NCBI GenBank assembly: GCA_017455845.1
Contig: JAFSYY010000037.1
Coordinates: 1 to 32,722, forward strand
Length of the DNA: 32,722 bases
Source of the DNA: Prevotella sp.
Lineage (GTDB): Bacteria; Bacteroidota; Bacteroidia; Bacteroidales; Bacteroidaceae
Direction: 5' to 3'
Under the pieces are notes generated by a model that saw nothing but the letters and a program-made list of their open reading frames with translations, made no database searches and was not told the DNA's origin. A program made the translations under genes and the position numbers. Shown one piece after another: positions 182 through 32,537 of this stretch (the first letter of the stretch is position 1; each line of letters starts with the position of its first letter).

Positions 182-230
182 CTCAACACTCAACTCTTAA
201 CTCTCAACTCTCAACTATCAACACTCAACT
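182..230. repeat. Heptamer tandem repeat (CTCAACT)x7
   Basis: Seven consecutive 7-bp units read CTCAACA, CTCAACT, CTTAACT, CTCAACT, CTCAACT, ATCAACA, CTCAACT. The array fills most of the gap between hutU and the CobD-like gene. It also encodes the hutU stop codon (TGA on the minus strand at 220-218) and most of its last four residues, RVEC. Confidence 0.9.
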
Positions 231-2281
231 CTGTTTATTATTTCGTCGTCCACGAGGTTAGGTAAGGTGACACAGAGGCCTGGTGTGCGCTCCATCTCGC
301 GACGGATGGCATCCATAGAGCCTTGGTTGCGGGCCCATGAGCGACGGGCAATGCCGTTGTTCACATCCCAGAACAGCATCTGGCGGATGCGGCGGTCGCA
401 GGCCTCGCTGCCGTCGATGACCATGCCGAAACCGCCGTTGATGACCTCGCCCCAGCCCACGCCGCCACCGTTATGGATGCTCACCCACGTAGCACCACGG
501 AAGGCGTCACCGATAACGTTCTGCACGGCCATGTCGGCACAGAACTGCGAGCCGTCGTAGATATTCGAGGTCTCGCGGAAGGGTGAGTCGGTGCCGCTGA
601 CATCATGGTGGTCACGCCCCAGCACCACCGGTCTGGAGATCTCCCCCCGGCGTATAGCCTCGTTGAAGGCCAGTGCTATCTTCGTGCGACCCTCGGCATC
701 GGCGTAGAGGATGCGTGCCTGTGAGCCCACGACAAGGTTGTTCTTGCCTGCCTCGCGAATCCAGTGCAGGTTGTCCAGCAACTGACCCCGTATGTCGTCG
801 GTCACGTGGTGGCTCATCTCTTCCAGCACCTCGGCGGCCAGACGGTCGGTCACCTCCAGGTCCTTCGGGTCGCCACTGGAGCATACCCAGCGGAAGGGGC
901 CGAAACCGTAGTCGAAGAACAGCGGTCCCATGATGTCCTGCACGTAGGAGGGATAACGTCCAAACACGTCGGCACCGGCACGGCTGGCCTCGAGGAGGAA
1001 GGCATTGCCATAGTCGAAGAAATACATGCCCCGGTCGGCCAGACGGTTGATAGCAGCCACCTGACGGCGCAGCGAGGCCTGCACGGCCTCCTTGAAGCGT
1101 TCGGGCTCTTCGGCCATCATGCGCTGCGACTCTTCCAGCGAGTAGCCCACGGGATAGTAGCCGCCCGCCCACGGATTATGCAGCGAGGTCTGGTCGCTGC
1201 CCAGGTCAACATGGATGTCCTCTTCGGCCAGCCGCTCCCACAGGTCCACCACGTTGCCCACGTAGGCCATGGAGAACGGGGTGAGAGGGGCTTCCCGACG
1301 GGGAACCGTCGGAAGTGATGGCTGGGTGAGAGGTGAGTCTTGTACCTGTTGTGTCCTCATTCTTATCTCTGCTATAACCTCGTCAAGGCTGTAGTAGAGC
1401 CGGTCCACCCATCCCTGGTCGTAGCGTTTCTGTGCGGCTTTCGGGTTGATTTCTGCGGTCACGCTCAACACGCCGGCAATATTCGCGGCTTTCGGCTGAG
1501 CACCGCTCATGCCACCGAGACCTGCCGTGACGAAGAGTGGCATCCTCTCATCGTTCTCCTCTCGCCTCTCACCTCTAATCTTCCGGGCGGCGTTAAGCAC
1601 CGTGATCGTGGTGCCGTGGACGATGCCCTGCGGACCGATATACATATAGGAGCCGGCAGTCATCTGACCATACTGGCTCACGCCCAGTGCGTTGTCGCGT
1701 TCCCAGTCGTCGGGCTTCGAGTAGTTGGGTATCACCATGCCGTTGGTGACCACTACGCGGGGAGCCTCCTTATGCGAGGGAAAGAGACCTAAGGGATGGC
1801 CGCTATACATCACCAGCGTCTGCTCGTCGGTCATCTCACTGAGGTATTTCATCACCAATCGATACTGTGCCCAGTTCTGGAACACGGCCCCATTGCCGCC
1901 GTAGGTGATGAGTTCATGGGGATGCTGTGCCACACGCGGGTCCAGGTTGTTCTGGATCATCATCATGATGGCAGCCGCCTGCGTGCTGCGGTGCGGATAA
2001 TCGTCGATGGCGCGGGCATACATAGGATAGGTAGGGCGGTAGCGATACATATAGATGCGGCCGTAGCGTTGCAGTTCCTCCGCAAACTCCGGTGCCAGTT
2101 GGGCATGCAGGTACTTGGGAAAATAACGCAGGGCGTTGCGCAGGGCCAGCCGTTTCTGTTCCGGCGTGAGGATGTCCTTGCGCTTGGGCGCGTGGTTGAT
2201 GGTGGTGTCGTAGGCAGGCATCTCCGGCAGTTCCACGGGAATGCCGGCCTGTATCTCTTTTTGGAAATCGTTTGTGGTCAT
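218..2281 (-). CDS. hutU: Urocanate hydratase
   Basis: Urocanase catalyses the second step of histidine degradation, adding water to urocanate to give imidazolonepropionate with a tightly bound NAD+ used as an electrophile. Visible family signatures are the NAD-binding GLGGMSGAQ near residue 255, QTSLHNPWAGGYYPVGY near 365, WVCSSGDPKDL, GRDHHDVSGTDSPFRET and the C-terminal IHNGGGVGWGEVINGGFG. At 687 residues it is longer than the roughly 550-residue proteobacterial enzymes; the longer form is usual in Bacteroidetes as far as I recall. Two stretches look like extra insertions: about residues 235-241, encoded by heptamer repeats, and about 314-334, rich in Ser, Pro, Thr and Leu. It lies downstream of ftcD, whose product acts two steps later in the pathway. 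hutI and hutH are not in the window. Confidence 0.96.
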   Translation of the reverse strand: MTTNDFQKEIQAGIPVELPEMPAYDTTINHAPKRKDILTPEQKRLALRNALRYFPKYLHAQLAPEFAEELQRYGRIYMYRYRPTYPMYARAIDDYPHRSTQAAAIMMMIQNNLDPRVAQHPHELITYGGNGAVFQNWAQYRLVMKYLSEMTDEQTLVMYSGHPLGLFPSHKEAPRVVVTNGMVIPNYSKPDDWERDNALGVSQYGQMTAGSYMYIGPQGIVHGTTITVLNAARKIRGERREENDERMPLFVTAGLGGMSGAQPKAANIAGVLSVTAEINPKAAQKRYDQGWVDRLYYSLDEVIAEIRMRTQQVQDSPLTQPSLPTVPRREAPLTPFSMAYVGNVVDLWERLAEEDIHVDLGSDQTSLHNPWAGGYYPVGYSLEESQRMMAEEPERFKEAVQASLRRQVAAINRLADRGMYFFDYGNAFLLEASRAGADVFGRYPSYVQDIMGPLFFDYGFGPFRWVCSSGDPKDLEVTDRLAAEVLEEMSHHVTDDIRGQLLDNLHWIREAGKNNLVVGSQARILYADAEGRTKIALAFNEAIRRGEISRPVVLGRDHHDVSGTDSPFRETSNIYDGSQFCADMAVQNVIGDAFRGATWVSIHNGGGVGWGEVINGGFGMVIDGSEACDRRIRQMLFWDVNNGIARRSWARNQGSMDAIRREMERTPGLCVTLPNLVDDEIINRVEC
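1281..1341. repeat. Low-complexity insertion with hairpin inside hutU
   Basis: GTGAGAG-type words flank a perfect 7-bp inverted repeat, CCGACGG (1295-1301) and CCGTCGG (1306-1312), with loop GGAA. The segment encodes a Pro/Ser/Thr/Leu-rich stretch (about residues 314-334) that matches no part of the urocanase fold I recognise, so it looks like an in-frame insertion. The flanking words resemble the heptamer repeats found elsewhere in the window. Confidence 0.5.
1559..1579. repeat. Short heptamer run inside hutU (CTCTCRC-type, x3)
   Basis: Three 7-bp units, CTCTCGC, CTCTCAC and CTCTAAT, lie in the hutU reading frame just before the NAD-binding motif. They encode a charged patch (within RGERREEN on the minus strand). 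Because 3 x 7 = 21 bases, the insertion keeps frame. Confidence 0.55.
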
Positions 2282-2295
2282 AGTATTATGCTTGC

Positions 2296-2391
2296 AGGAG
2301 GCGGGAATACCGCCTTTATACGGAATATGATGCAGGAGGCGGGGAAACCGCCTTTATACGGAATATGATGCAGGAGGCGGGGAAACCGCCT
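2296..2391. repeat. 38-bp tandem repeat with internal dyad, 2.5 copies, between ftcD and hutU
   Basis: Units start at 2296, 2334 and 2372 with an exact 38-bp step. The first two units differ at two positions and the third is cut after 20 bases. Each unit carries an inverted repeat (GGCGG then CCGCC, extended to GGAGGCGG/CCGCCTCC in the last copy). It occupies nearly the whole 121-base gap between the ftcD stop and the hutU start, so on the minus strand it would form a row of hairpins in the hutU leader. Confidence 0.9.
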
Positions 2392-2402
2392 CCCACGGAC
2401 AA

Positions 2403-4133
2403 TTATAGTTTTGATTCGACAATGGCAATGATCTCACGCTCGTTGGCTTCGGCCCGCTTAATCATGTCGCTGGCTTCGGCCACCAAGCGGTCGGCGGCGG
2501 CCTTGTCCTTCAACTGGGCAGCATTGATTTTCACGTTAAGCCCGGCACCCAGCACGGCGGCACGGGCAGCCAGTGCGCCAACGCCGGCATCGCTCACGCT
2601 GTTAGGATTGCCTTCCTTGGCCATGGTTCTGCAGAGCACGAAGATCTGCATGGCAGCATGCATCGTACGCAACGGCACTTGTGTGGCATAGAGCGTAGCC
2701 TCTTGTATAGCCACCTCGCGGACAGCCTTCTCCTCGTTGGTAGTTTTAGGCAGGGCGAAGGCTTCCATGATGCGGTTGAAGGCACGGGTGTCCTCATCGA
2801 CCAGCATCATGAGTTGGCGTATCATGTCCTGACCCATGTCAGCATACTGCGAGAACTCCTCCCAGCGTTCGTCCCAACCCACCTTATGTGCGGAGAGATT
2901 GGCCACCATCGTACCCAGTGCGGCACCGAGGGCACCCATGTAGGCGGCAACGGAGCCGCCGCCCGGAGCGGGACTCTCTCGCGATGTCTCGTTGGCAAAG
3001 TCGTTGACAGAGAGTTCGACCAATGGTGAAGCGTGGCGCGTGGCACATTCAGCGTCCTCGATAAGGTATTCAATCACTTTCTCGCGTGGGTTGAACGGCT
3101 TCAGGTCGTCGAGTCCCATCGACTTGATAGCAATCTTGATGATGTCCTCTTCGGGAATGCCCACTGAGCGTTGCTGCTTCTCCAGGAAATACTTACCCGC
3201 ATCGACAAGCGCCTTCTTTGGTAAGAGGCCCACGATCTCCGTACCCGTGACACGGATGCCACGATTTTGGGCACAGCGGCACACCTCGTCGAAAGCCACA
3301 TGGAGGGGTGTCACATTGAGGTTGGTCATGTTCATCGACACCTGTGCGATACCGTATTCGTCGATATACCAGCCTATGGCCTTGGTGCATTTCAGAGTGC
3401 CGGGCTTCATCACGGGGTTGCCCTTCTCGTCGCGGATGATAGCCCCCGTCAGCACATCGCCCTCACGCATGGGTCGTCCTTTCTCCCTTACATCGAAAGC
3501 GATGGCGTTGGCACGGCGCGTGCTGGTGGTGTTCAGGTTCCAGTTGACGGCAATGAGGAAGTCGCGGGCACCAACGGCTGTACAGCCAGTCCTGAGGACA
3601 GAGGAGTTCAAGGTCAAGATGGCCGAGTTAGGCGACATATAGTCGGGTTTGCGGCTGGGGTCTGTGAGTTTCTCCTGCAAGGCCTCATATTCTCCCGCAC
3701 GGCATACGGCCAGGTTCTTACGCTCCGGCTTCAGGGCAGCGGCCTCGTAACAATAGCAGGGTATGCCGGCCTCGTTGGCCAGCCGCTGGGCCAACTGCCT
3801 TGCCAGCACAGCACATTCCTCCAGCGTGATTCCTGATACGGGGATGAGAGGCAGCACATCAGTAGCACCCATACGGGGATGTGCTCCGTGGTGCTGACGC
3901 ATGTCAATCACCTCGCCTGCTTTCTTCGCGGCGCGGAAGGCGGCCTCAACCACTGGCTCCGGCTCTCCCACGAAGGTCACCACCGTTCGGTTGGTGGCTT
4001 CGCCCGGGTCAACGTTGAGCAGCAGCACGCCGTCAACCGATTCAATCTCGTCTGTAATTTCCTTGATGATGCTCATGTTGCGGCCCTCGCTGAAATTGGG
4101 CACACATTCAATGAGACGCTTAGTTGTTTCCAT
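2403..4133 (-). CDS. ftcD: Bifunctional glutamate formimidoyltransferase / formimidoyltetrahydrofolate cyclodeaminase
   Basis: This enzyme moves the formimino group of formiminoglutamate, the end product of histidine breakdown, to tetrahydrofolate and then deaminates it to methenyl-THF. Residues 1 to about 330 are the formiminotransferase part, with IECVPNFSEGR at the start, RQHHGAHPRMGATDVLPLIP near 80, and AIGWYIDEYGIAQVSMNMTN. From about 370 (VELSVNDFANETSRESPAPGGGSVAAYMGALG, split around the glycine-rich PAPGGGS) the cyclodeaminase part follows. At 576 residues it has the length of the fused vertebrate-type enzyme. It is the first gene of the minus-strand run, with a -7 box about 65 bases upstream, and hutU follows after 121 bases. 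Confidence 0.96.
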   Translation of the reverse strand: METTKRLIECVPNFSEGRNMSIIKEITDEIESVDGVLLLNVDPGEATNRTVVTFVGEPEPVVEAAFRAAKKAGEVIDMRQHHGAHPRMGATDVLPLIPVSGITLEECAVLARQLAQRLANEAGIPCYCYEAAALKPERKNLAVCRAGEYEALQEKLTDPSRKPDYMSPNSAILTLNSSVLRTGCTAVGARDFLIAVNWNLNTTSTRRANAIAFDVREKGRPMREGDVLTGAIIRDEKGNPVMKPGTLKCTKAIGWYIDEYGIAQVSMNMTNLNVTPLHVAFDEVCRCAQNRGIRVTGTEIVGLLPKKALVDAGKYFLEKQQRSVGIPEEDIIKIAIKSMGLDDLKPFNPREKVIEYLIEDAECATRHASPLVELSVNDFANETSRESPAPGGGSVAAYMGALGAALGTMVANLSAHKVGWDERWEEFSQYADMGQDMIRQLMMLVDEDTRAFNRIMEAFALPKTTNEEKAVREVAIQEATLYATQVPLRTMHAAMQIFVLCRTMAKEGNPNSVSDAGVGALAARAAVLGAGLNVKINAAQLKDKAAADRLVAEASDMIKRAEANEREIIAIVESKL

Positions 4134-4197
4134 ATAATTATTTAGGTTTTTAATTGCAAAAGATTGGTTCTTGAGTCACTTTGTTTATAATTTCCTA

Positions 4198-4205
4198 CAA
4201 AGGTA
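4198..4205 (-). promoter_or_regulatory. Bacteroidetes -7 box upstream of ftcD
   Basis: On the minus strand the sequence is TACCTTTG, matching the TAnnTTTG -7 consensus of the Bacteroidetes primary sigma factor. It lies 65 bases before the ftcD start. No convincing TTTG -33 box stands at the expected distance. Confidence 0.55.
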
Positions 4206-5459: not shown

Positions 5460-5484
5460 AATGAGAAATGAGAAATGAGAAATG
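5460..5484. repeat. Heptamer tandem repeat (AATGAGA)x3.6
   Basis: Three exact AATGAGA units and a partial fourth lie in the divergent rpsO/radical SAM interval, just upstream of the rpsO -7 box. Confidence 0.85.
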
Positions 5485-5568: not shown

Positions 5569-5581
5569 CAACTAACAACTG

Positions 5582-5609
5582 TAAATTGTGAATTATGAAT
5601 TATGAATTG
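5582..5609. repeat. Heptamer tandem repeat (TGAATTA)x4 over a start codon
   Basis: Four 7-bp units read TAAATTG, TGAATTA, TGAATTA, TGAATTG. The last two span the ATG of the radical SAM gene at 5602-5604, so the repeat forms the whole ribosome-landing region. Confidence 0.85.
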
Positions 5610-6474
5610 TATCTACCCTTCCCCCATCTTCGGCCCGGTGCATAGTCGGCGACTGGGCATTTCACTGGGCATCAACCTGCTGCCAGCCGACGGCAAGGTG
5701 TGCTCGTTTGACTGTATCTATTGTGAGTGTGGCTTTAACAGCGACCACCGCCCTACCCTGCCTATGCCCACCCGTAAAGAGGTGGCACTGCGGCTGGAAG
5801 AGAAACTGCAGCAGATGACGGCCGAGGGCATGCTACCCGACGTGCTGACGTTTGCCGGCAACGGCGAGCCAACGTGTCATCCGCACTTTGCCGAGATTAT
5901 CGACGACACCATCCGTCTGCGTGACCGCTATTGTCCCAAGGCCAAGGTTTCCGTGCTGAGCAACTCGACGATGATCCACCGGCCGGAGGTGCACGACGCA
6001 CTGATGCGCGTAGACAACAACATCCTGAAACTCGACACCATCGACCCTATATATATAAATAAGGTGGACAGGCCCAACGGTGCCTACGATGTCAATGCCA
6101 TCATAGAGGGGATGAAGGCGTTTAACGGTCACGTCATCATCCAGACGATGTTTATGAGGGGCAGGATATGTCGAGGTACGGGGTGCGAGGTACGAGGTAC
6201 AGGGTGCGAGGTACGAGGTACGGGGTGCGAGGTGTGAGGTACGGGGTGTGAGGTACGAGGTGCGAGGTGCGAGGATAGTGTCGATAATACGGGTGATGAA
6301 TATATTGAGCCGTGGTTAGAGGCGGTGAAGGCTATCAGGCCACAGCAGGTGATGGTCTATACCATCGACCGCGAGACACCGATGCAGGGACTGGAAAAAG
6401 CCAGTCGCGAACGGCTTGATGCCATCCGCGACCGTGTTATCGCCGCAGGTATTCCCTGCACTGCCAGTTACTAG
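5602..6474 (+). pseudogene. Radical SAM protein (COG0731-like) interrupted by an in-frame stop in a repeat tract
   Basis: The N-terminal 190 residues are a clean radical SAM domain. The cluster-binding cysteines are Cys34, Cys38 and Cys41 (CSFDCIYC), preceded by FGPVHSRRLGISLGINLLP, the mark of the COG0731 Fe-S oxidoreductases found as single copies in Bacteroidetes; the substrate is unknown to me. At 6173-6270 fourteen heptamers enter the frame and encode RGTGCEV repeats. A TGA at 6235-6237 ends translation at residue 211. The family C-terminus (YIEPWLEAVKAIRPQQVMVY and on to CTASY, stop 6472-6474) resumes in the same frame. So one stop codon, not a frameshift, separates the two halves. The gene may be dead, read through, split, or strain-variable. 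Confidence 0.8.
6173..6270. repeat. Heptamer tandem repeat (GAGGTAC)x14 inside the radical SAM gene
   Basis: Fourteen consecutive 7-bp units fit GRGGTRY (with one AGGGTGC), mostly GAGGTAC or GGGGTGC. Because three heptamers make seven codons, the tract is read as a 7-residue peptide repeat. One unit ending GTGT creates the in-frame TGA. Confidence 0.95.
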
Positions 6475-6502: not shown

Positions 6503-6529
6503 AGTAGTTAAAGTAGTTAAGGGAGTTAA
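6503..6529. repeat. 9-bp tandem repeat (AGTAGTTAA)x3 between convergent genes
   Basis: Units AGTAGTTAA, AGTAGTTAA and GGGAGTTAA precede a small palindrome (TAAGTTA-C-TAACTTA, 6527-6541) that contains the LpxA-family gene's stop codon. The period is 9 here, unlike the heptamer loci. Confidence 0.7.
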
Positions 6530-7329: not shown

Positions 7330-7485
7330 TTAATTAGTAATTGGAAATTAGTAATGAGTAATTATGATTAGACTCGCAAATGAGAAGTTTTCCAATATCA
7401 CGAAACCAATCATTTCACCTTTTATTTTTTATTTCTGCAAAAGTAATCATAATTACTCATTACTCATTCCTCATTTCTCATTTAC
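7330..7485. repeat. Heptamer-armed inverted element, copy 1 (OMF gene / lpxA junction)
   Basis: The left arm is a run of GTAATTA-type heptamers (7330-7371). The right arm is the reverse-complement series TAATTAC/TCATTAC (about 7444-7485). The inner borders are TGATTAGAC on the left and GCAAAAGTAATCAT on the right, around a core unlike those of the other two copies. CAAAAGTA (7438-7445) reads TACTTTTG on the minus strand, matching TAnnTTTG. The stop codon of the outer-membrane factor gene lies in the right arm. Confidence 0.85.
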
Positions 7486-8881: not shown

Positions 8882-9011
8882 TTAATTAGTAATGCGTAAT
8901 TAGTAATTAGTAATTATGATTAGACCTCTCACTCCAGAAAACTATCATTCTGCACCTTTATCAGCAAAAGTATTCATAATTACTAATTACTCATTACTAA
9001 TTACTCATTTC
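8882..9011. repeat. Heptamer-armed inverted element, copy 2 (RND pump / OMF junction)
   Basis: The left arm (8882-8923) reads TTAATTA, GTAATGC, then GTAATTA three times, then TGATTAG. The right arm (8977-9011) reads TAATTAC, TAATTAC, TCATTAC, TAATTAC, TCATTTC. The borders are again ATTAGAC and GCAAAAGTA. The minus-strand box TACTTTTG is at 8972-8965. The RND pump stop codon (9005-9007) lies in the right arm. Confidence 0.85.
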
Positions 9012-12273: not shown

Positions 12274-12407
12274 TTAATTAGTAATTAGTAATGAGGAATT
12301 AGTAATTATGATTAGACTTGACAATGGAAACATCTAATCTCGCGATGGTTTCCCGCATAGCAAAAGTAATCATAATTACTCATTACTAATTACTCATTAC
12401 TAATTAT
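12274..12407. repeat. Heptamer-armed inverted element, copy 3 (adaptor / RND pump junction)
   Basis: The left arm (12274-12315) reads TTAATTA, GTAATTA, GTAATGA, GGAATTA, GTAATTA, TGATTAG. The right arm (12373-12407) reads TAATTAC, TCATTAC, TAATTAC, TCATTAC, TAATTAT. The borders ATTAGAC and GCAAAAGTAATC are the same as in copy 1. The minus-strand TACTTTTG box is at 12368-12361. The adaptor stop codon (12404-12406) lies in the right arm. Confidence 0.85.
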
Positions 12408-13582
12408 TTTTTCATCGCCCCTACGATATCCCCGGCGGTCATGGCCTTGGCCTGCTCACGGATTTTCTCCTGGTAGCGCTGGGGCGTGATGGGCACAATC
12501 TCCATCTGGTCAGAGAGTTTGGTGATGCCGTTGGTCACATACTTGTCGCCCACCTGCAGACCGCCGGTCACGATATAGTTGTTGCCATCGTTCTGCGGGT
12601 CTACGGTAATCTCGGTGTAGGCCACCTTGTTGCTGTCCTTCAGCAGATAGACGAACTTCTTGTCCTGCACCTCCATGACCACGCTCTGGGGAATGACGAT
12701 GGCGGCATCGGCCGAACGGGGCACGATGATGGTGCCCGAGCCGCCACTCTTCAGCAGTTTGTCGGGATTGGGGAAGTGGGCCTTCATCTGGACGGAGCCT
12801 GTGGACTTGTCGATGACGCCGCTGATGGCCACCACATGGCCGTCGTAGCCATAGACGCTGCCGTCGGCCAGTTGCAACTTCACGGGCGGGAAGGCATCAA
12901 CGGCACCACGCAGGCCGCCCTCGCCCTGCGAGAGCGTCAGCATGTCTTTCTCGGTCAGCGAGAAGTAAACCTCCATCTTACTGATGTCCGACACGTGGGT
13001 CAGGATATTGGAGGCGCTTACCAACGCACCCTTCTTGAAGGGCAGTGTGCCCACCACGCCGGCGGCGGGGCTCTTCACGTAGCAGAAACTCAGGGCTTCC
13101 TTGGCCGAGGCCAGGGCAGCCTGGGCCTGTGCGAGGCCTGCCTGTGCGCTGAGGAACGAGTTCTCTGCCGTCTGCAACTCATAGTCGCCCACCACGCGGT
13201 TGGCATGCAGTTGCTTGGTGTTCTCAAAGGTCAGTTTGGCGGTGTTCACACTGCTCTGCGCAGTGTTAACGGCAGCCTGGGCCTGGCGCACCTGGGCCTG
13301 ATAGGTCTCGTTGTCGATGACAAAGAGCACCTGTCCGGCACTCACGGTCTGACCCTCAGAGACATTAATCTGAGTAAGGAATCCTGAAACTTTCGGACGA
13401 ATCTCCACATCCTGAATACCGTTGATGGTGGCAGGATAGGTGGTCTGCATGGCAGCACTCTGGGTGCTCACCGTTTCCACGGGATACTCGTTGTCGCCGA
13501 ATGTGGGACGGCCGCCGCCTCCTCCACACGACACCAACACGGTTGCAGCGGCTGCAACCATTAGCATTTTGTTCATTTTCAT
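12404..13582 (-). CDS. RND efflux periplasmic adaptor (AcrA/MexA family lipoprotein)
   Basis: This membrane fusion protein bridges the pump and the outer-membrane channel. It starts MKMNKMLMVAAAATVLVSC with lipobox Cys19, followed by a glycine run. The biotinyl-lipoyl-like half motifs are visible (EIRPKVSGFLTQINVSEGQ near 60 and SFCYVKSPAAGVVGTLPFKKG near 165) around an alpha-helical hairpin rich in Ala and Gln. Beta-barrel and membrane-proximal domains follow, ending GITKLSDQMEIVPI. At 392 residues it has the normal length. It is the first gene of the efflux run, with a -7 box 94 bases upstream. Confidence 0.95.
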   Translation of the reverse strand: MKMNKMLMVAAAATVLVSCGGGGGRPTFGDNEYPVETVSTQSAAMQTTYPATINGIQDVEIRPKVSGFLTQINVSEGQTVSAGQVLFVIDNETYQAQVRQAQAAVNTAQSSVNTAKLTFENTKQLHANRVVGDYELQTAENSFLSAQAGLAQAQAALASAKEALSFCYVKSPAAGVVGTLPFKKGALVSASNILTHVSDISKMEVYFSLTEKDMLTLSQGEGGLRGAVDAFPPVKLQLADGSVYGYDGHVVAISGVIDKSTGSVQMKAHFPNPDKLLKSGGSGTIIVPRSADAAIVIPQSVVMEVQDKKFVYLLKDSNKVAYTEITVDPQNDGNNYIVTGGLQVGDKYVTNGITKLSDQMEIVPITPQRYQEKIREQAKAMTAGDIVGAMKK

Positions 13583-17132: not shown

Positions 17133-17879
17133 ATGGAAAAAACTGACCAAAAAAAGATAACGCTGGGCGTCATCCTGGCTGCTGGCATGGCCAAAAGGCT
17201 GCGCCCGCTGACCGACGAGCGCCCCAAGTGTCTGCTCACCATAGGACAGCGCACACTGCTGCAACGCACGGTGGATGCGATGACGGCGGCGGGCATCAGC
17301 GAACTGGTGGTGGTGACCGGCTATCGCGCCCAGATGATACGCGACTTCCTGACGGAGCACTACCCCACGCTCACCATCCACTTCATTGACAATCCCGACT
17401 ACGCCCACAACAACAACATCTTCTCGTTGTGGCTCACACGACCCTATACCGACGGCCGCGATTTCCTGCTGTCGGACAGCGACATACTGTTCGACCCGCA
17501 GATTATTCCCGCCGTGCTCAGTGCCGAGGGCAGCGCACTGGCCGTGAACAGGCATGAGTTGGGCGAAGAGGAGATCAAGGTCATCGTGGACGCTGACAAC
17601 CGCGTGGTGGAGATCAGCAAGGTATGCTCCATAGAGCAGGCCGTGGGCGAAAGCGTGGGCTTCGAGAAGATGACGGCCGAATATAGCACGGCCCTCTTCC
17701 GGGAACTGGAGCAGATGATAGAGCGCGAAGGCCTTATCGACATCTTCTACGAGCGTGCTTTCGAGCGGCTGATACCCCAAGGGCATACGTTCCGAATGGT
17801 AGATACCACCCGATTCTTCTCCATGGAACTCGACACGGTAGAGGACTATGAGAACGCGAAAATAACGTATAATAATTAA
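17133..17879 (+). CDS. LicC/PntC-like nucleotidyltransferase (probable cytidylyltransferase)
   Basis: It probably activates a phosphorylated or phosphono amino alcohol with CTP. The nucleotide-binding start is GVILAAGMAKRLRPLTDERP followed by KCLL, the nucleotidyltransferase signature. NPDYAHNNNIFSLW corresponds to the asparagine-rich motif typical of phosphocholine (LicC) and 2-aminoethylphosphonate (PntC) cytidylyltransferases rather than sugar-phosphate enzymes. LLSDSDILFD carries the metal-binding aspartates. The 248-residue length fits a single-domain enzyme. It leads a same-strand run with a PLP enzyme 18 bases downstream and a CDP-alcohol phosphotransferase after that, which supports a CDP-linked product. 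The substrate is not determined by sequence; a sugar-phosphate substrate is less likely. Confidence 0.85.
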   Translation: MEKTDQKKITLGVILAAGMAKRLRPLTDERPKCLLTIGQRTLLQRTVDAMTAAGISELVVVTGYRAQMIRDFLTEHYPTLTIHFIDNPDYAHNNNIFSLWLTRPYTDGRDFLLSDSDILFDPQIIPAVLSAEGSALAVNRHELGEEEIKVIVDADNRVVEISKVCSIEQAVGESVGFEKMTAEYSTALFRELEQMIEREGLIDIFYERAFERLIPQGHTFRMVDTTRFFSMELDTVEDYENAKITYNN

Positions 17880-17894
17880 GCATTAAGCATTGGA
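17874..17894. repeat. Short heptamer run at a gene junction (CATTAAG-type)
   Basis: AATTAAG, CATTAAG and CATTGGA fill the 18-base gap between the cytidylyltransferase stop and the next start codon at 17898. Only two units match well. Confidence 0.5.
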
Positions 17895-17897: not shown

Positions 17898-18947
17898 ATG
17901 AACTTTCTTGATAGAAACGAATTTAACTTTGAGCCCAGCCAGAAGGTGGTAGAGGCTATTAAGAATTTTGACCCGAAGACACTGTGCTTCTACACCCGTA
18001 TCTACGACCAGGGCAAGAAGAGTGTCATCAGCGTGCGCGTCAGCGAGATTTACGGCGTACCCGAGGAACAGGTGCTGCTGGCCTACGGCGGCGAGGACAT
18101 CCTGAAGAACGCCATCCACTACTTCCTGATGAAGGGCGACAACAAGACGATCCTCATACCTGAGTTCTCGTGGTGGTATTATAATAAGGTGGCACAGGAA
18201 TGTGGAGGCACCTTCGAGATGTACCCCCTCTATGAGCAGGAGGACACCTTCGCCTATAACGTTGACGAGGTGATTGAATACACCAACCGCATCCATCCCC
18301 GCATGCTGCTGCTGGCATCGCCCAACAACCCCACGGGCAACAGCCTCACCTCGGAGGAGATAGGCCGCATCATGGAGCACATTCCCAGCGACACGATGGT
18401 GCTGGTCGATGAGGCATACGCCAGTTTCATCACCAGCGACGTGGACTATATAGCCCCGCTGGTGAACAAGTACGACAACCTGATTATCTCGCGCACACTG
18501 TCGAAGTTCTACGGGCTGCCCGGCCTGCGCTGCGGCTTCGGCTTCATCGGCAAGGGCCACGACCAGTTTATCAGTTACATCAACAAATACCTGGGCTACA
18601 ACCGCTTCTCGGAGGCCGTGGCACTGGCTGCGCTGGAGAGCGACGAGCACTACCGTCAGGTAGCCAATGATATGGAATGGGGACGGCAGTTGTACAAGAA
18701 GGTGCTAGGCCCGCTGCCCGGCTTCAAGGTGTATAAGTCGGTGGCCAACTTCATCCTCATCAAGTATCCCGTGGAGATTAAGGATGCCCTGATGGAAGCC
18801 CTGAAGATTCAGGACTATAAGATCAAGTTCATGAGCGACAAGGGCTTGGAGTCGTGCCTGCGCATCACGCTGGGACGCAAGGAGCAGACACAGGTGGTTG
18901 TAGATACCATCAAGAAGGTCTACGACCAAGTGAGAAATGAGAAATGA
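17898..18947 (+). CDS. PLP-dependent class I/II aminotransferase or phospho-amino-acid decarboxylase (HisC/CobD-like)
   Basis: This is a fold-type I PLP enzyme of 349 residues. ASPNNPTGN and VLVDEAYASF contain the residues that hold the pyridine ring. Lys203 in ISRTLSKFYGLPGLRCGFG is the Schiff-base lysine, and CLRITLG near the end supplies the substrate-carboxylate arginine. The family includes histidinol-phosphate aminotransferase and the CobD decarboxylase. Between a cytidylyltransferase and a CDP-alcohol phosphotransferase, a role in histidine synthesis is unlikely. Making the amino-alcohol phosphate (for example phosphoserine to phosphoethanolamine) is an inference from context. The last residues (RNEK) and stop come from a heptamer repeat. 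Confidence 0.85.
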   Translation: MNFLDRNEFNFEPSQKVVEAIKNFDPKTLCFYTRIYDQGKKSVISVRVSEIYGVPEEQVLLAYGGEDILKNAIHYFLMKGDNKTILIPEFSWWYYNKVAQECGGTFEMYPLYEQEDTFAYNVDEVIEYTNRIHPRMLLLASPNNPTGNSLTSEEIGRIMEHIPSDTMVLVDEAYASFITSDVDYIAPLVNKYDNLIISRTLSKFYGLPGLRCGFGFIGKGHDQFISYINKYLGYNRFSEAVALAALESDEHYRQVANDMEWGRQLYKKVLGPLPGFKVYKSVANFILIKYPVEIKDALMEALKIQDYKIKFMSDKGLESCLRITLGRKEQTQVVVDTIKKVYDQVRNEK

Positions 18948-18957
18948 GAAGTGAGAA
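18930..18957. repeat. Heptamer tandem repeat (ATGAGAA)x4 spanning a stop and abutting a start
   Basis: Units GTGAGAA, ATGAGAA, ATGAGAA and GTGAGAA run from the last codons of the aminotransferase through its TGA (18945-18947) up to the base before the next ATG at 18958. The unit resembles the AATGAGA array at 5460. Confidence 0.9.
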
Positions 18958-19956
18958 ATGAACGAGAAATATAGGGCAACACTGAAATCGGCTGAGACAG
19001 AAGACTGGCTCGACCTGCACGTCATCCGGCCGTTCTGCTACTACTGCGCCGTGTTCTTTGCCAAGTTCGACGTGCACCCCAACACCATCACCATCTGGTC
19101 GATGATCATCGGCGCCGCCAGCGCATGGTTCTTCGCACAGGGCAGTTGGTACTACAGCACTGCAGAGTATGGCAGTATGTGGCCAGGACTGGTATATAAT
19201 ATAATAGGTATATTCCTGCTGATGTGGGGCGACATCTTCGACTGCACCGACGGACAACTGGCACGCATGACGGGCAAGAAGAGCCGACTGGGACGTATCC
19301 TCGACGGACTGGCCGGCTTTGCGTGGTTCTTCCCCATCTATCTGGCCTTGGTCTATCGGTTCTATGTGCACCACGACCTGGAGTTCCAGTTCCTGGGCAT
19401 CGAGAACACGGAGCAGAACACGCTCATAGCCACCGCCGTGGTCTTTATGCTCGCACTGATATCAGGGCTATGGGGCCTGCAGGGGCAGCAGCGACTGGCC
19501 GACTACTACATCCAGGTGCACCTGTTCTTCCTGAAAGGCGAGAAGGGCAGCGAACTGGACAACTCCGTACGCCAGAAGGAGATCTACGAGCAGATGCCCA
19601 AGGATGCACCCTTCTACGAGCGCTGGTTCCAGAAGTCGTATATAGAATACACCAAGAAGCAAGAGAACGTAACGCCCGAATTCCAGAACCTGCTGGCCAA
19701 GATGCGACAGAAATACGGCAGCCTGGACAACATTCCGCAGGAACTGCGCGAGGAGGTGCACCGAAACTCACTGCCGCTGATGAAATGGAACGGCCTGATG
19801 ACCTTCAACTTCCGGGAGTTCTGGATGTTCCTGTTCTGCCTTCTCGATGTGCCGGTGTGCCATTTCCTGTGGGAGACAATAGCCATGGGGCTCATCTTCT
19901 GGTATGTCAACCATCGTCACGAATCGTTCTGCAAGCGCATTGCACAAGGACTGTAA
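18958..19956 (+). CDS. CDP-alcohol phosphatidyltransferase family membrane protein
   Basis: Members transfer a phospho-alcohol from a CDP-alcohol to an acceptor alcohol in the membrane. The signature D-x2-D-G-x2-A-R-x8-G-x3-D-x3-D is present as Asp95, Asp98, Gly99, Ala102, Arg103, Gly112 and Asp116. The final aspartate position (120) is glycine. Several hydrophobic helices flank the motif, and HVIRPFCYYCAVFFAKFDVHPNTIT is the typical start, split at the first helix. At 332 residues it is longer than PgsA or PssA, with a charged loop of about 90 residues late in the protein. With LicC-like and PLP genes upstream it most likely attaches an amino-alcohol phosphate head group to a lipid. Confidence 0.88.
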   Translation: MNEKYRATLKSAETEDWLDLHVIRPFCYYCAVFFAKFDVHPNTITIWSMIIGAASAWFFAQGSWYYSTAEYGSMWPGLVYNIIGIFLLMWGDIFDCTDGQLARMTGKKSRLGRILDGLAGFAWFFPIYLALVYRFYVHHDLEFQFLGIENTEQNTLIATAVVFMLALISGLWGLQGQQRLADYYIQVHLFFLKGEKGSELDNSVRQKEIYEQMPKDAPFYERWFQKSYIEYTKKQENVTPEFQNLLAKMRQKYGSLDNIPQELREEVHRNSLPLMKWNGLMTFNFREFWMFLFCLLDVPVCHFLWETIAMGLIFWYVNHRHESFCKRIAQGL

Positions 19957-22363: not shown

Positions 22364-22495
22364 GTATCGAAACTGTATACACTTCGTGTTCCGGCCGTAT
22401 ACAACTTGTATTCAGCCTGAATACAGTTTGTATTCGGCCGGAATACATTTTGTATACAGCCTGAATACAACTTGTATTCGGCCTGAATACAAAGT
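22364..22495. repeat. Array of six 22-bp palindromic units between convergent genes
   Basis: Units start at 22364, 22386, 22408, 22430, 22452 and 22474 with no slip. Units 3 to 6 fit GTATWCRGCCKGAATAC followed by a 5-base spacer; each core is a dyad (GTATTC ... GAATAC). Units 1 and 2 are diverged but keep the length and GTATAC/GTATTC-like ends. The array fills the space between the clostripain fusion and the minus-strand histidine kinase stop at 22505. Confidence 0.92.
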
Positions 22496-28279: not shown

Positions 28280-28534
28280 CTACTGACCATATTTTTCCAG
28301 AAGGTACTCTTCTTTTTCCTTCTTCCAATCCTCAGTCTGGCAGGCAGAGAAGGCACCGCAATATTTATCTACCAATGCTACCCTACGTTGCTGCTCTGGA
28401 GTGAGTTCACGTTTCGGCTCCTGAGGTATGACATTAGTAAGAAAGAGAAATACCCTTTCCATAAGTGCCGTATCTCTAACGTCTATTTGGCTGACGAGCC
28501 TCATTGACATCTGTTTCATCTTCAGTGTAGTCAT
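28280..28534 (-). CDS. Probable antitoxin of the PIN toxin pair
   Basis: An 84-residue hydrophilic protein lies immediately upstream of the PIN gene. It opens with a short strand that could bind DNA as a ribbon (LKMKQMSMRLVSQI), continues with a helical middle, and ends with an acidic tail (CGAFSACQTEDWKKEKEEYL) of the kind that blocks PIN active sites. I recognise the tail pattern (DKYCGAF...W..EKEEYL) from Bacteroidetes PIN partners but cannot name the family with certainty. A full promoter precedes it at 28621-28652, so the pair has its own transcript. Confidence 0.78.
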   Translation of the reverse strand: MTTLKMKQMSMRLVSQIDVRDTALMERVFLFLTNVIPQEPKRELTPEQQRRVALVDKYCGAFSACQTEDWKKEKEEYLLEKYGQ

Positions 28535-28620
28535 ACAATAGTCATTCAGGCTGGCATCGACGGATTATTATCAAGCCCTTTGTTGTGATAGTTAATAATT
28601 AGAGTTAATCAAATACGCTG

Positions 28621-28652
28621 CAAATTTAGAAAAAATATCTTAACAATCCAAA
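28621..28652 (-). promoter_or_regulatory. Promoter of the toxin-antitoxin pair
   Basis: On the minus strand TTTG (28652-28649) precedes TAAATTTG (28628-28621) by 20 bases. The start codon is at 28534, leaving a leader of about 80 bases. Two ATTAACT words, 14 bases apart in that leader, could be operator half-sites, but the evidence is thin. Confidence 0.75.
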
Positions 28653-28670
28653 TATTTTCGAAAGTTTTTG

Positions 28671-28678
28671 TACCTTTG
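28671..28678 (+). promoter_or_regulatory. -7 box of tsaE
   Basis: TACCTTTG on the plus strand, 28 bases before the ATG at 28706. It sits back to back with the toxin-antitoxin promoter. Confidence 0.6.
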
Positions 28679-28705
28679 CCACGAAAAATAGAAACAGAAG
28701 ATAAT

Positions 28706-29149
28706 ATGGAAATAAAAATCAATGGTCTTGAAATGATTCGCGAGGCTGCCCGCGAGTTTATCAGCGAGATAGGCGACCACAAAGTGTTTGCATTCTATGG
28801 CAAGATGGGAGCAGGCAAGACAACCTTCATCAAGGCCGTCTGCGAGCAACTGGGCGTCAACGACGTCATCACCTCGCCCACCTTCGCCATCGTGAATGAA
28901 TATGAGGTAAGAGGGGCGGTAGCAAATTCTTCACTCTTCACACTTCACTCTTCACTTATTTATCACTTCGACTTCTACCGCATCAAACGCATAGAGGAGG
29001 TCTATGACATGGGCTATGAGGACTACTTCTACAGTGGCGCACTATGTTTCATAGAGTGGCCAGAACTCATTGAGAGCCTGCTGCCCGACGATGCCGTCAA
29101 GGTGAGCATCGAGGAAAACGAAGACGGCACACGAGTCGTGAGATACTGA
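28706..29149 (+). CDS. tsaE: tRNA threonylcarbamoyladenosine biosynthesis ATPase TsaE
   Basis: TsaE is the ATPase that works with TsaB and TsaD to make t6A37 in ANN-decoding tRNAs. The Walker A motif is GKMGAGKTT near residue 33; TSPTFAIVNEYE and YHFDFYRI are the next conserved blocks, and FIEWPELIESLLP the last. The start is set at 28706, because the longer frame from 28676 would begin inside the promoter. Between VNEYE and YHFDFYRI, where relatives have only a few residues, this protein has about 17 extra (VRGAVANSSLFTLHSSL), partly encoded by four heptamers. The final length of 147 is slightly above usual. Confidence 0.94.
   Translation: MEIKINGLEMIREAAREFISEIGDHKVFAFYGKMGAGKTTFIKAVCEQLGVNDVITSPTFAIVNEYEVRGAVANSSLFTLHSSLIYHFDFYRIKRIEEVYDMGYEDYFYSGALCFIEWPELIESLLPDDAVKVSIEENEDGTRVVRY
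28930..28957. repeat. Heptamer tandem repeat (TTCACTC)x4 inside tsaE
   Basis: Units TTCACTC, TTCACAC, TTCACTC and TTCACTT lie in the tsaE reading frame between two conserved blocks and encode part of SSLFTLHSSL. Confidence 0.9.
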
Positions 29150-29170
29150 ACAACAAAGCAGATACCCGTC

Positions 29171-31894
29171 ATGATGAAAAGACTACTTGCCACCATCATC
29201 GCCCTGCTTTCCGTTGTCTGTACGATGACGGCCAAGGAAGGTTCCGTCCCCGAAGAGGATGGCTCGCGACCCGAAGATAACGTATATGATGTTTTCGTCG
29301 CTGAAAAAGAGATGAAGGCCGACCTGCTACAGATGCTGGCCTACTTCGCCACCTATATAGAGAACGACTTCCAGGAGTGCGTGGCCACCAACAGCATAGG
29401 CGAGGCCTGCGGATGCTTCAAGGGCGAGAACACCATGGCCAACGACGAGAGAGGGGTGCGGCCAAATGCCGACTTGTCGATGGTCTGCGCATTCTTGGCA
29501 AAATACGGAAAAGGAAAGGTGACACTGTCAGAAGGCGTGACATGGGACAAGATAGAGGACATGGCCATGAAGAGCCTGGTCTTCGCATACTCTACACATA
29601 AGGCCAACAAACTGAAGGTATGCGCAGGAAACAACTACTGGGGCTCGACCTCCACAAGCGATGCCGTATGGGAGAGTTCACTATGGGCTATGTCGGTGGC
29701 TTACTCGGCATTCTTCCAATGGCACAAACTGAATGACGCACAAAAGAACTATATATACCAGTTGCTGAAGGCAGAATGTAACTACGAACTCTACCGCGAC
29801 ATTCCCACCGGCTTTGACGGCGACACGAAGGCCGAAGAGAACGGATGGGAGGCCGACGTGCTGGCTGCCACACTGGGACTTTTCCCCAACGACCCGCTGG
29901 CTCAGAAATGGTTCCAGCGGCTGCGCGAGTTTGCCATCAACAGTTATTCGCAGAAGGATGATGCGACAGATGACACCGTCATTGACCCGGACTATGACTC
30001 AACGACGGTGAGAGACCTGTATCGCGGGCAAAACCTCTATGATGACTACACGTTGCAGAACCATAATTATTTCCACACCTCGTACCAGAACGTGGTGATT
30101 CAGGAACTGGGAGAGGCTGCTCTGGCCCTGAAACTCTTCCAGAAGGAACTGCACGGCACGGAGCGCTGGAAAACAAACGCACTGATGCACAACAACGACA
30201 AGGTGATGCAGGAGGTGCTCTACTGGCTGGCACTCAGCGACGGAGAACTGGCCATGCCCAACGGCAACGACTGGAGCCTATTCCTCTACGACCAGATAAC
30301 CTCCTACTCTACCAACGCCTGCTTCCTCAGAGACCCGCACGCGCTGATGCTGGAAAACCTGGCATACCGGATGATCAAGGCTCGCCAGCAGACCACCACA
30401 GAGAGGCTAAAGGCCGACGGCGACACATCGAAGGCCGGCTCATGGCTGCTGCGGGCCGACGTAGGAGCCAGACGCATGGGGGTACAGGCCCACCGCGTGA
30501 TGATGACATGGCTCATGCATGAGGTACTCTCCACCGCCAGCCTCTCCCCCACCCGCTGGGATGACTTCAACCGCGAATACGGGCCTGCGAAGGTTTTCCC
30601 TTCGCAGAACATCGTCCGCGCCTCCACCCACGACCGATTCACCTGCTTCTCATGGAGCACGGGCCTAAACAGTTACACCGGCTATATCGCCCCCCACATT
30701 AATCCCATCGTTTCTCCGTCGGGCACAGCCACCACTCCCGCCGGTTTTCCGTCGGGCACAGCCACCACTCCCGACGCATCTCCGTCGGGCACAGCCACCA
30801 TTCCCGCCGCTTTTCCGTCGGGCACCAACCTCATCGTCCCCTTCCGGGCCCACAACACCGGAAACTTCCTGGGTTGGTACGAGGTGGAGGGAAGGAAGAC
30901 CAACGCAGTGCCCGTGGTCAGCGGCATCTACGACCTGCACGAAGACAGTTACATGATGAATGGCGAACTGAACACCAACGACGGAACGCTGAACAACCGC
31001 TTCGCCATCTACTCCACGCCCGGCAATGCCGTCATCTACCTGGACCATGTGCGTGCCAATGCCGATGTGACCATCAAGAAGGAGAAAGGCGGACTGATGG
31101 CCATCAGCATGGACGAAATGACCAAGACCGAGCGCACATTCTGCTACGAGGAAGGTGACAGCACAGGTACAACGCTGCTCGACGGCAGCACCTTCACACA
31201 GATGACCACCAACTGGATAAACGTCAGCAACAGCCTCAGCATCGTTTCTGTGAGCGACAAGCAAATGGCTTTCGGCGAAAAAGCCAACAACAACTCTGTC
31301 ATGACTGCCAAGTTATATGCCTCATATTCCGACAAGAGCCGCTCGGTGAAGGCTGGCGACGTGGTTGACCGGCGCAACGTCACATACTATACCAACAGCG
31401 ACAATGCACAGGCCAAGGCCATGGCAGACGGAGCAACACTTCTGACTACGCCAGAGGGGTGGAACGGCATCATCATGCCCGACAACAACGGCCACGGAGC
31501 CGGCGGTGCCGTCCACTATATGCTACTCTCCAACTTTGCCGGAAGCAACAAATGCACACTAAGAGACGTGACCGTAGAAGGACTGGGCTGCCCTGTGTTC
31601 AACGTTCCGACAACCATCACTGCTGACGGTGCCTCTGCCACCTACAACGTAGAAGAGAACCATTCGGCCGTTGCCGTCATCCGCTATTTCATCCAAGGTG
31701 AAGGGGTGGATGCCTTCCAGGATAAAGACGACGATGGGGTCATCTATGTTCGTAACACAAAGAAAGGACGGAACACCATCCGTGTGACATACAATGCCGG
31801 CAATCATAGCGACAGTAAAGAATACACTCTGAAGAGCAAGACCGTGAAAATCCGTCTGGACAACAACAAAAAAATGCTCTCACCTTTGCGGTGA
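29171..31894 (+). CDS. Large secreted protein of unknown function, alpha/alpha-toroid-like then beta-rich
   Basis: A signal peptide (MMKRLLATIIALLSVVCTMTA) begins a 907-residue protein. Residues of about 40-500 are mostly helical, with aromatic and His-rich blocks such as NLYDDYTLQNHNYFHTSYQN, and SSLWAMSVAYSAFFQW. The second part is beta-rich, with FRAHNTGNFLGWYEVEGR, NNRFAIYSTPGNAVIYLDH and a terminal Ig-like segment. This plan resembles polysaccharide lyases and related toroid enzymes, but no catalytic motif was recognised. Near the middle, 3.3 copies of an 11-residue repeat (PSGTATTPAGF-like) form a linker. It starts 21 bases after tsaE. Its stop codon lies inside the 3' arm of a terminator. 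Confidence 0.72.
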   Translation: MMKRLLATIIALLSVVCTMTAKEGSVPEEDGSRPEDNVYDVFVAEKEMKADLLQMLAYFATYIENDFQECVATNSIGEACGCFKGENTMANDERGVRPNADLSMVCAFLAKYGKGKVTLSEGVTWDKIEDMAMKSLVFAYSTHKANKLKVCAGNNYWGSTSTSDAVWESSLWAMSVAYSAFFQWHKLNDAQKNYIYQLLKAECNYELYRDIPTGFDGDTKAEENGWEADVLAATLGLFPNDPLAQKWFQRLREFAINSYSQKDDATDDTVIDPDYDSTTVRDLYRGQNLYDDYTLQNHNYFHTSYQNVVIQELGEAALALKLFQKELHGTERWKTNALMHNNDKVMQEVLYWLALSDGELAMPNGNDWSLFLYDQITSYSTNACFLRDPHALMLENLAYRMIKARQQTTTERLKADGDTSKAGSWLLRADVGARRMGVQAHRVMMTWLMHEVLSTASLSPTRWDDFNREYGPAKVFPSQNIVRASTHDRFTCFSWSTGLNSYTGYIAPHINPIVSPSGTATTPAGFPSGTATTPDASPSGTATIPAAFPSGTNLIVPFRAHNTGNFLGWYEVEGRKTNAVPVVSGIYDLHEDSYMMNGELNTNDGTLNNRFAIYSTPGNAVIYLDHVRANADVTIKKEKGGLMAISMDEMTKTERTFCYEEGDSTGTTLLDGSTFTQMTTNWINVSNSLSIVSVSDKQMAFGEKANNNSVMTAKLYASYSDKSRSVKAGDVVDRRNVTYYTNSDNAQAKAMADGATLLTTPEGWNGIIMPDNNGHGAGGAVHYMLLSNFAGSNKCTLRDVTVEGLGCPVFNVPTTITADGASATYNVEENHSAVAVIRYFIQGEGVDAFQDKDDDGVIYVRNTKKGRNTIRVTYNAGNHSDSKEYTLKSKTVKIRLDNNKKMLSPLR
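30716..30825. repeat. 33-bp in-frame tandem repeat, 3.3 copies
   Basis: Units start at 30716, 30749, 30782 and 30815 (CCGTCGGGCACAGCCACCA each time, last one partial). They encode PSGTATTPAGF, PSGTATTPDAS, PSGTATIPAAF and PSGT. The step of 33 preserves frame. Confidence 0.92.
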
Positions 31895-31906
31895 GAGCAT
31901 TTTTTT
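31868..31906. terminator. Bidirectional terminator overlapping the 3' end of the secreted-protein gene
   Basis: A 17-bp stem, A7 plus TGCTCTCACC (31868-31884) with GGTGAGAGCA plus T7 (31890-31906), closes a 5-base loop. The TGA stop of the upstream gene (31892-31894) is in the 3' arm. On the minus strand the same hairpin serves rplQ, which ends at 31937. Confidence 0.92.
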
Positions 31907-31936
31907 ATGCAATGATAAATATTTACTTGGAATAAC

Positions 31937-32446
31937 CTATTCAGCCTTTGCCTCCTCAGCAGGGGCCTCTTCGGTTGCAGGTGCCTCCTCAGCCTTGGGA
32001 GCCTCCTGAGCAGGAGCCTCAGCCTTGGGAGCAGACTTGCGCGAACGACGGGTAGCCTTCTTCTTCGTCTCGGTCTTTGCCATGTCGGGATCAAAGTCAA
32101 CGAGTTCGATGAAGCAAATCTGAGCAGCATCGCCCTGACGGGTACCCAGTTTGATGATACGGGTGTAGCCACCGGGACGGTCGCCAACCTTCTCACTCAC
32201 CGTGGAGAAGAGTTCCTTGATAGCCTCTTTGTTCTGCAGATAACTGAAAACCACACGGCGTGAATTGGTCGAGTCCTCCTTGGCCTTGGTAATCAGGGGC
32301 TCAACATACTTTTTAAGGGCCTTTGCCTTGGCCACGGTCGTAGTGATTCTTTTGTGCATGATCAGCGAAACGGCCATGTTGGCAAGCATGGAAGCGCGAT
32401 GCGATGCAGTACGACCCAGATGATTGAATTTCTTATTATGTCTCAT
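31937..32446 (-). CDS. rplQ: 50S ribosomal protein L17 with acidic Ala/Pro/Glu tail
   Basis: L17 sits near the peptide exit tunnel. The core of about 120 residues is standard: [59 protein letters not shown]. After a basic linker ([14 protein letters not shown]) a 35-residue tail built from Ala, Pro and Glu follows, ending [11 protein letters not shown]; such tails are frequent on Bacteroidetes L17. It lies directly downstream of rpoA, as usual. The hairpin at 31868-31906 ends the operon. Confidence 0.97.
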
Positions 32447-32474
32447 TGTTCTTTTTACTTTTTATTGGGCAAAT

Positions 32475-32537
32475 TATAAATTATGCATTATGAATTATGC
32501 ATTATGAATTATGCATTATGCATTATAAATTATGCAT
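32475..32537. repeat. Heptamer tandem repeat (TATGMAT)x9 between rpoA and rplQ
   Basis: Nine exact 7-bp units alternate TATGCAT and TATGAAT, with TATAAAT twice. The array runs up to the first base of the rpoA stop codon and occupies two thirds of the 90-base gap to rplQ. Confidence 0.95.

Follow-up and report, generated by a model that had tools for sequence, protein, structure and literature searches.

Why should a single contig of Prevotella sp. (GenBank assembly GCA_017455845.1, contig JAFSYY010000037.1) carry many short tandem repeats that keep to a unit of 7 bp while the letters of the unit change from one locus to the next? This contig, C101 in our numbering, is the window analyzed here over its full length of 32,722 nucleotides, and its heptamer arrays are the subject of this report. 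A first-pass annotation had listed eleven such loci and proposed copying by length rather than the spread of one sequence. Tandem Repeats Finder (TRF) and the best self-shift among shifts of 2 to 12 both give period 7 at every one of the eleven, with self-shift matches of 37/44 at 182, 10/12 at 1559, 18/18 at 5460, 19/22 at 5582, 72/95 at 6173, 21/28 at 7330, 23/28 at 8882, 23/28 at 12274, 22/25 at 18930, 20/22 at 28928 and 52/62 at 32472. When an array is defined by a score of at least 12, the window holds 11 arrays of period 7 and none at periods 5, 6, 8, 9 or 10; not one of 100 Markov-3 shuffles gives a period-7 array. The reading we favor, to which we give about an even chance of being right, is that this lineage makes repeats in steps of 7 bp, mostly by local growth, that a minority of arrays became paired and then dispersed, and that hairpins are kept where they are useful.

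The arrays of the window are listed below; strand is assigned only to the family A arm, and families A and B are described with the paired arrays.

182-232: CTCAACT array, 7.3 units, at the 3' end of the urocanase gene (218-2281, minus strand; Pfam urocanase domains)
1558-1577: weak 7-bp array, 2.7 units, within the urocanase gene (TRF, self-shift)
5460-5484: exact AATGAGA array, 3.6 units, intergenic (TRF, self-shift)
5580-5610: AATTATG-type array, extending into the start of the radical SAM gene
6172-6274: CGAGGTR array, 14.7 units, inside the radical SAM gene
7331-7483: inverted pair of GTAATTA/ATGAGTA type, family B (arms 7331-7364 and 7452-7483), between the OEP and LpxA-type genes of an operon; fold z -6.1
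8883-9009: inverted pair of GTAATTA, family B (arms 8883-8916 and 8977-9009), between the RND pump and OEP genes; fold z -6.7
12275-12406: inverted pair of GTAATTA/GTAATGA, family B (arms 12275-12308 and 12373-12406), between the HlyD-type adaptor and RND pump genes; fold z -6.3
17875-17891: short ATTAAGC array, 2.4 units, intergenic, missing from the earlier list
18931-18961: TGAGAAA array, 4.4 units, at a gene end, directly ahead of the next ATG
28916-28956, minus strand: single family A arm, fixed end 28916-28928 plus a CTTCACT array, in frame within the tsaE gene (28676-29149)
32471-32540: AATTATG/CATTATG array, 9.9 units, intergenic (TRF, self-shift)

The locus near 1559 does have period 7, but taken alone it is weak (TRF score 31). 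The GTAATTA arrays that had been listed as complements are real, but they are the second arms of the three inverted pairs given above. Pfam domains back the names urocanase, radical SAM, RND pump, OEP, HlyD-type adaptor, LpxA-type acyltransferase, FabH and TsaE; acpP, fabF, era and rpmF, used below, are presumed names.

A period of seven in the genus

The source assembly comprises 2.43 Mb in 124 contigs and is 68% complete. Our genome sample consists of the window and 20 further contigs or contig starts, 315 kb in all or about 13% of the assembly. Exact arrays, defined by at least 12 consecutive matches at a given shift, number 60 at period 7 in 282 kb of the other contigs and 0, 0, 0, 0, 1 and 1 at periods 2, 3, 4, 5, 6 and 8, with additional peaks at 14, 21 and 28 and an average of 0.0 at period 7 in Markov-3 controls. 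With mismatches allowed, the whole sample contains 74 arrays in 21 unit classes. Pooled data from the genus give 1, 1, 5, 199, 29, 48, 10, 6, 17 and 1 arrays at periods 4 to 13. This spectrum cuts off sharply below 7 and tails off over 8-9, with 9 as the second commonest short period; a separate peak at period 22 is common to the genus and other genera of the family. The period distribution that the first-pass annotation had proposed as a check shows a sharp peak at 7 in both the genome sample and the relatives, with locus-specific units. The period it had called fixed is dominant but not locked, since units of 8 and 9 bp do occur. We suggest that the lineage strongly prefers a 7-bp step when making tandem repeats. 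A bolder version, which we consider possible but doubtful, is that the locus-private repeats are laid down by a copying process, dedicated or modified, that advances by 7 nt (soft at its 8-9 edge and hard below 7), and are used as interchangeable RNA-hairpin material.

Relatives were read as stretches only, some of them picked on contigs already known to contain a match, and all eighty named loci surround fabH. Array density per 100 kb is 23.5 in the window's own genome, 5.4 in eleven genomes of the genus and 7.5 at the eighty named Prevotella-type loci, and it is 0.5 in other genera of the family, 0.75 in other families of the class and 0.25 in other classes of the phylum (ten genomes each); 100 kb of E. 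coli K-12 contain 0 arrays. Among named sequences, the window's FabH comes closest to those of Prevotella communis and uncultured Prevotellaceae (92% identity), with Xylanibacter brevis at 90%, which marks the source as a Prevotella-like bacterium of gut type; many of the named relatives are labeled as rumen isolates or assemblies. The excess of heptamer arrays is restricted to the genus in the samples taken. Artefacts of metagenome assembly are an unlikely source because arrays are present in the one-contig genomes G016 and G177 (G and L numbers are our own labels) and in isolate loci, though few in the latter.

An excess of heptameric repeats is known from many bacterial genomes (Mrazek 2007, as cited in PMC4692102), and PMC4692102 cites an idea of polymerase slippage and of a polymerase footprint. 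It also describes GGGAATC repeats in Xanthomonas, some in inverted pairs, and GGGGA(T/C)T repeats in Nostoc. Direct repeats of TAACTGA have been reported near start codons in Beggiatoaceae, cyanobacteria and five Bacteroidetes (PMC4679880). The remark that no account was known for this group of organisms therefore holds only in the narrower sense that we found no Prevotella account of such repeats, or of the acpP-fabF gap discussed below, in the open-licence literature. The arrays described here share with the Xanthomonas and Nostoc heptamers the period of 7, a mostly intergenic position, a variable copy number and units that differ by organism. Unlike these, they vary in unit from locus to locus within one genome, occur also in protein loops, form paired arrays in dispersed families and include a conserved hairpin site. 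The TAACTGA repeats are similar as intergenic heptamer direct repeats closely upstream of start codons; they have one fixed unit, and this unit is absent from the 21 classes of the own genome and the 48 classes of the eighty named relatives.

A simple explanation would be that our arrays are this ordinary bacterial excess, a universal property of polymerases merely noticed here. The over-representation and the footprint idea in PMC4692102 are in its favor. However, density is about 10- to 90-fold lower outside the genus and E. coli has none in the stretch read, so we regard this explanation as very improbable, and the genus restriction disfavors universal slippage as the whole answer. The arrays are a real, genus-level variant of the known bacterial heptamer repeats.

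Local units at recurring sites

Unit sequences were compared within and between genomes. Among relatives, units at a distance of 0-1 make up 10.1% of 129 pairs within a genome and 9.1% of 7593 pairs between genomes, a near equality that fits local birth of arrays; G037 alone has six arrays of six unit classes in 80 kb. The window's own genome behaves differently: 20.3% of 2677 pairs are at this distance, distant loci share units and the commonest unit classes account for 14 and 12 of the 74 arrays. The expectation of locus-private units is thus borne out in the relatives but not in the own genome, where units recur at distant loci. Similarly, copying by length agrees with the period peak and with the private units, whereas dispersed families with fixed ends speak for some spread of sequence. 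Since the commonest kind of unit in the own genome rides on a dispersed element with a fixed end, sequence spread is part of the story. Neither are the units arbitrary; in the list of units, read without a computed consensus, a single purine-rich theme seems to recur with variations in most of them.

The same site often carries different units in different species. Orthologous loci that our scripts could read numbered 19/29 for the radical SAM gene (those alignable on both sides), 21/30 for tsaE and 58/80 for the fabH-era gap; the remaining 10, 9 and 22 were unreadable. At the radical SAM loop the CGAGGTR array of the window is matched by a CAATGTT array at the same place in G037 and by a different insert in G110, while most of the alignable orthologues have a short loop; the 19 orthologues are 87-111 bp shorter at the array site. 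The array in the window's radical SAM gene contains an in-frame stop at 6235-6237 and the frame goes on past it, which may reflect a truncated gene or a matter of assembly consensus. In the TsaE loop there are four different arrays (the window's species, G172, G034 and G179), and a clean in-frame insertion of a 43-bp single family A arm in G134 stands against an empty site in G141. The gap between the HlyD-type and RND genes has GTAATTA units here, ACATTGT in G022, GTTTACA in G018; in G015, inspection by eye shows an 8-base inverted pair.

The fabH-era gap measures only 11-14 bp in many species, and where it is longer it contains GTGAATA, GTGAAAA, GTAATGA or GCTAAAN units or family B elements. 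Period 7 reaches a repeat score of 9 in 14 of the 58 readable species and none of the other periods from 4 to 12 does so in any of them. Array length in this gap is 14 bp in L101 and 35 bp in L120 and L128. These could be read as a series of seed and growth, which is suggestive only, as nearest kinship among the three is not established. A few array differences were found between closer pairs (20 alignments of at least 87% identity and at least 1500 bp); they include one clean single-arm insertion and a locus of L120 and L128 at which the units differ at the same positions throughout. Upstream of the presumed rpmF-type gene, where these two neighbors are about 91% identical, one shows GTTAAAA/GTTTAAA units and the other GTGAAAA units with a family A-like end.

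In the reading we favor, most arrays would be born and turned over in place, in DNA under low constraint such as gaps near stop and start codons and tolerant protein loops. Growth probably proceeds by slipped-strand duplication, and because of this proposed mode of growth the step would be shared and the letters local. By a greedy, simple open reading frame (ORF) rule, 40 of the 74 arrays in the window's genome are intergenic, 5 are at gene ends and 29 in genes, at 89.8% coding; among 125 arrays of relatives the figures are 76, 24 and 25, at 87.6% coding. Arrays are therefore enriched outside genes without being confined there, and they often adjoin start and stop codons.

Position next to starts and stops raises another possibility, that the arrays are selected regulatory or translational signals, either repeated binding sites or stop cassettes. 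Three units containing one stop codon place stops in all three frames, because 7 is one more than a multiple of 3. Of the 87 arrays that lie between co-directional genes, 63 have their purine-rich strand in the mRNA sense (binomial p 3.5e-5). Stop triplets occur on the sense strand only in 45 of these 87 and on the other strand only in 7 (binomial p 7e-8), and all three frames are stopped on the sense strand in 72/87 and on the antisense strand in 36/87. Arrays inside genes have a sense-strand unit without stop triplets in 49 of 54 cases. Selection may account for this strand and stop bias, and so may seeding alone: an array that started from the stop codon of the upstream gene would show an identical bias. 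Periods of 8, 10 and 11 would be equally suitable for stopping all frames yet are rare, the gene calls come from the simple rule above, and a single binding protein is unlikely because units differ between loci and species. We therefore consider a signaling role as the general explanation improbable.

Paired arms and dispersed families

Most arrays are unpaired. Among 35 pairs of arrays less than 250 bp apart, 27 have units at distance 0-1, of which 15 are inverted and 12 direct. An inverted partner within 160 bp accompanies 34 of 193 arrays (17.6%) vs 0.9% in swapped-flank controls. Different pairs have different units, such as TGACGGA in L120, TAGACTG in L223 and CATTGAC in L082, and the arms within each pair agree. 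We propose that in a minority of cases two arrays of the same unit came to face each other and so form a hairpin, possibly with copying between the arms.

Two kinds of arms are dispersed. Family A consists of GTGAAGA-kind heptamers followed by a fixed end, AATTTGCTRCCGC. Of 13 occurrences of this core in the sample, 12 adjoin heptamers, and in one of the 12 a nested 38-bp repeat intervenes. The family A pattern has 43 copies in this genome, is present in 57 of 150 genomes of the genus with a maximum of 49 copies (G101), and occurs in 4 of 95 genomes of other genera; the reversed control pattern has no match in the 150 genus genomes. The family A copies listed are mostly single arms. Family B combines GTAATTA-kind heptamers with the end TATGATTA and provides the three elements in the RND operon of the window. 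Its pattern was found in 22 of the 150 genus genomes, with 7 copies here, and its reversed control has no match; these counts are lower bounds because the pattern used misses variants. Copy number shows that single and paired arms are dispersed. The families are dispersed in many copies; the paired copies have inverted terminal repeats and short variable interiors, two of which in G154 look similar by eye. Outer borders are often TA or TAA by eye, and neither a target-site duplication nor a transposase could be tied to the elements. Some pairs, those of families A and B with their own fixed inner ends, may have been copied widely in the manner of small foldback elements or miniature inverted-repeat transposable elements (MITEs), presumably by transposition. 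Relative to the open-licence literature, heptamer arrays as arms of dispersed hairpin elements are new. BrickBuilt, a MITE of Porphyromonas gingivalis with an internal 23-nt minisatellite (PMC4596501), is alike as a short repeat element of Bacteroidales with variable-number tandem repeats; its 23-nt unit lies inside IS5-like terminal repeats, while here the unit is 7 bp and forms the outer arms.

Such families could also be taken as the whole explanation. The arrays would then chiefly be the termini of mobile elements of foldback or MITE type, heptamer-spaced sites at these termini would be bound by a transposase of the genus, solitary arrays would be broken or decayed copies, and the units would correspond to element families. 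Eukaryotic foldback elements have a small core between terminal inverted repeats, each composed of short direct repeats that vary in number. The elements described here resemble them in their inverted repeats of short direct repeats; here they are bacterial, about 100-170 bp long and mostly single-armed, and their transposition is our interpretation. The two multi-copy families, mainly restricted to the genus and combining a fixed inner end with outer arms of heptamers, favor this explanation, as do the short variable interiors of paired copies and the single-arm insertion with an empty site in a relative. However, most arrays have neither a recognized fixed end nor a partner, target-site duplications were not established, and relatives share units within a genome no more than between genomes. 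A long-distance facing pair at L319 has ordinary-looking genes and no transposase inside, as judged without a family search of these genes. Mobile elements as the chief origin of the arrays thus seem to us unlikely, if worth keeping in view; local growth with occasional pairing and dispersal remains the preferred reading.

An autonomous element was looked for and rejected, as the genes between two facing family A ends of G031, 1.4 kb from each other, look ordinary. Repetitive extragenic palindromic (REP) elements with REP-associated tyrosine (RAYT, Y1) transposases are hairpin repeats scattered over intergenic sites. A resemblance to them in a GTAG-like motif and in the 38-bp hairpin repeat, which is nested next to some family A ends, prompted the idea of a Y1 transposase as source. 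This idea did not survive inspection: no family A end is present in regions around 20 Y1 hits, and repeat searches in four Y1 regions yielded inverted repeats of other sequence. PF01797 is commoner in genomes with family A (43/57 vs 45/93; Fisher p 0.0012 from a hand count uncorrected for kinship). In two of the four Y1 regions examined, L347 and L351, Y1 transposase-like genes are flanked by inverted repeats containing GGGGACAGG, which are probably these genes' own repeats. The 38-bp repeat itself is dispersed, contains two small hairpins and often lies exactly between a heptamer array and a family A end (L036 at about 12560-12597, L050 at about 3708-3746, L329 and L337).

Repeats of other lengths also occur in the window. 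There are 22-bp repeats based on the near-palindrome ATACAACTTGTAT at 22373-22492, a 38-bp tandem repeat of 2.6 copies with an internal inverted repeat at 2293-2391, between the urocanase gene and its upstream neighbor, and an in-frame 33-bp tandem repeat of 3.4 copies at 30715-30825 within a 907-aa ORF (29171-31894). A 9-bp repeat of AGTAGTTAA type at 6503-6529 recurs at several sites of the genome sample.

A conserved hairpin between acpP and fabF

Six elements, three from the window and three others, fold at z -6.1 to -13.3, and 0 of 200 shuffles folded as well. Family A pairs in the gap between the presumed acpP and fabF genes of G022 and G141 prompted a look at other species; Pfam places an acyl carrier protein domain ahead of a ketoacyl synthase domain at this site. 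From 132 genus genomes with an acpP hit, 20 were taken, mostly the best-scoring rows, and the two known cases were added. All 22 species have a hairpin between the stop of the first gene and the start of the second, at z -4.5 to -12.3, with 20 of 22 below -6 and 0 of 100 shuffles as good. The stem is built of 7-base repeats in 15 species and of 8-base repeats in three; the remaining four hairpins lack repeats, and two of these four resemble terminators and have a T run. Of the 18 repeat cases, 11 reach the repeat score in both arms and 7 in one arm. At least four units are clearly different, namely GTGAAGA/AATGAAG, GGTGATA/GGTGTTG, GACAATT/GAGAATT, GTAATTA/GGAATTA and the octamer AATTGAAG. It is possible that at such sites selection keeps the structure, perhaps for a function in RNA, while the repeat unit of the stem varies by species. 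A conserved hairpin whose stem comes from different repeats in different species is new relative to the open-licence literature.

Several observations weigh against the reading we favor. Clean insertions between species (496 alignments, mean identity 82%) number 17, 13, 15, 5, 9 and 29 at sizes of 4 to 9 bp, so that the 5 of 7 bp are no excess over the 15 of 6 bp and the 9 of 8 bp; insertions of tandem-duplication type total 8, 2 of them of 7 bp. This spectrum speaks against 7-bp duplication as a general bias, unless the species are too diverged for such a bias to be seen. Genus genomes G024 (100 kb) and G032 (80 kb) are without arrays, and nine isolate loci (140 kb) hold just 3. Direct partners are enriched as well (27/193 arrays vs 1.8% in swapped-flank controls) and inverted pairing is therefore only part of the clustering. 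The acpP-fabF set covers 22 of 132 genomes and includes G022 and G141, known beforehand as carriers of family A pairs, and G032 with a family A end listed at this site; 7 of its 15 heptamer hairpins have just one arm that reaches the repeat score. Co-directional gaps in the own genome and the relatives fold at z < -4 in 5/34 cases with arrays vs 48/218 without. Array-bearing gaps are thus not better folders, so arrays are not hairpins in general and the conserved hairpin is a property of the acpP-fabF site rather than of arrays at large.

The bacterial heptamer excess has so far been without an explanation or a tractable system. Since closely related species of this genus range from none in the sampled stretches to more than 20 arrays per 100 kb, array density can be set against their genes and repair states. 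That 6-bp arrays are so scarce beside the abundant 7-bp ones (5 vs 199) points to a factor that measures length. The acpP-fabF gap would be a clear case of a hairpin that is conserved although its stem sequence is exchanged from species to species, and alignment-based RNA searches would miss such hairpins. If the doubtful reading of a 7-nt copying process with interchangeable stems were true, structure would be inherited where sequence is not.

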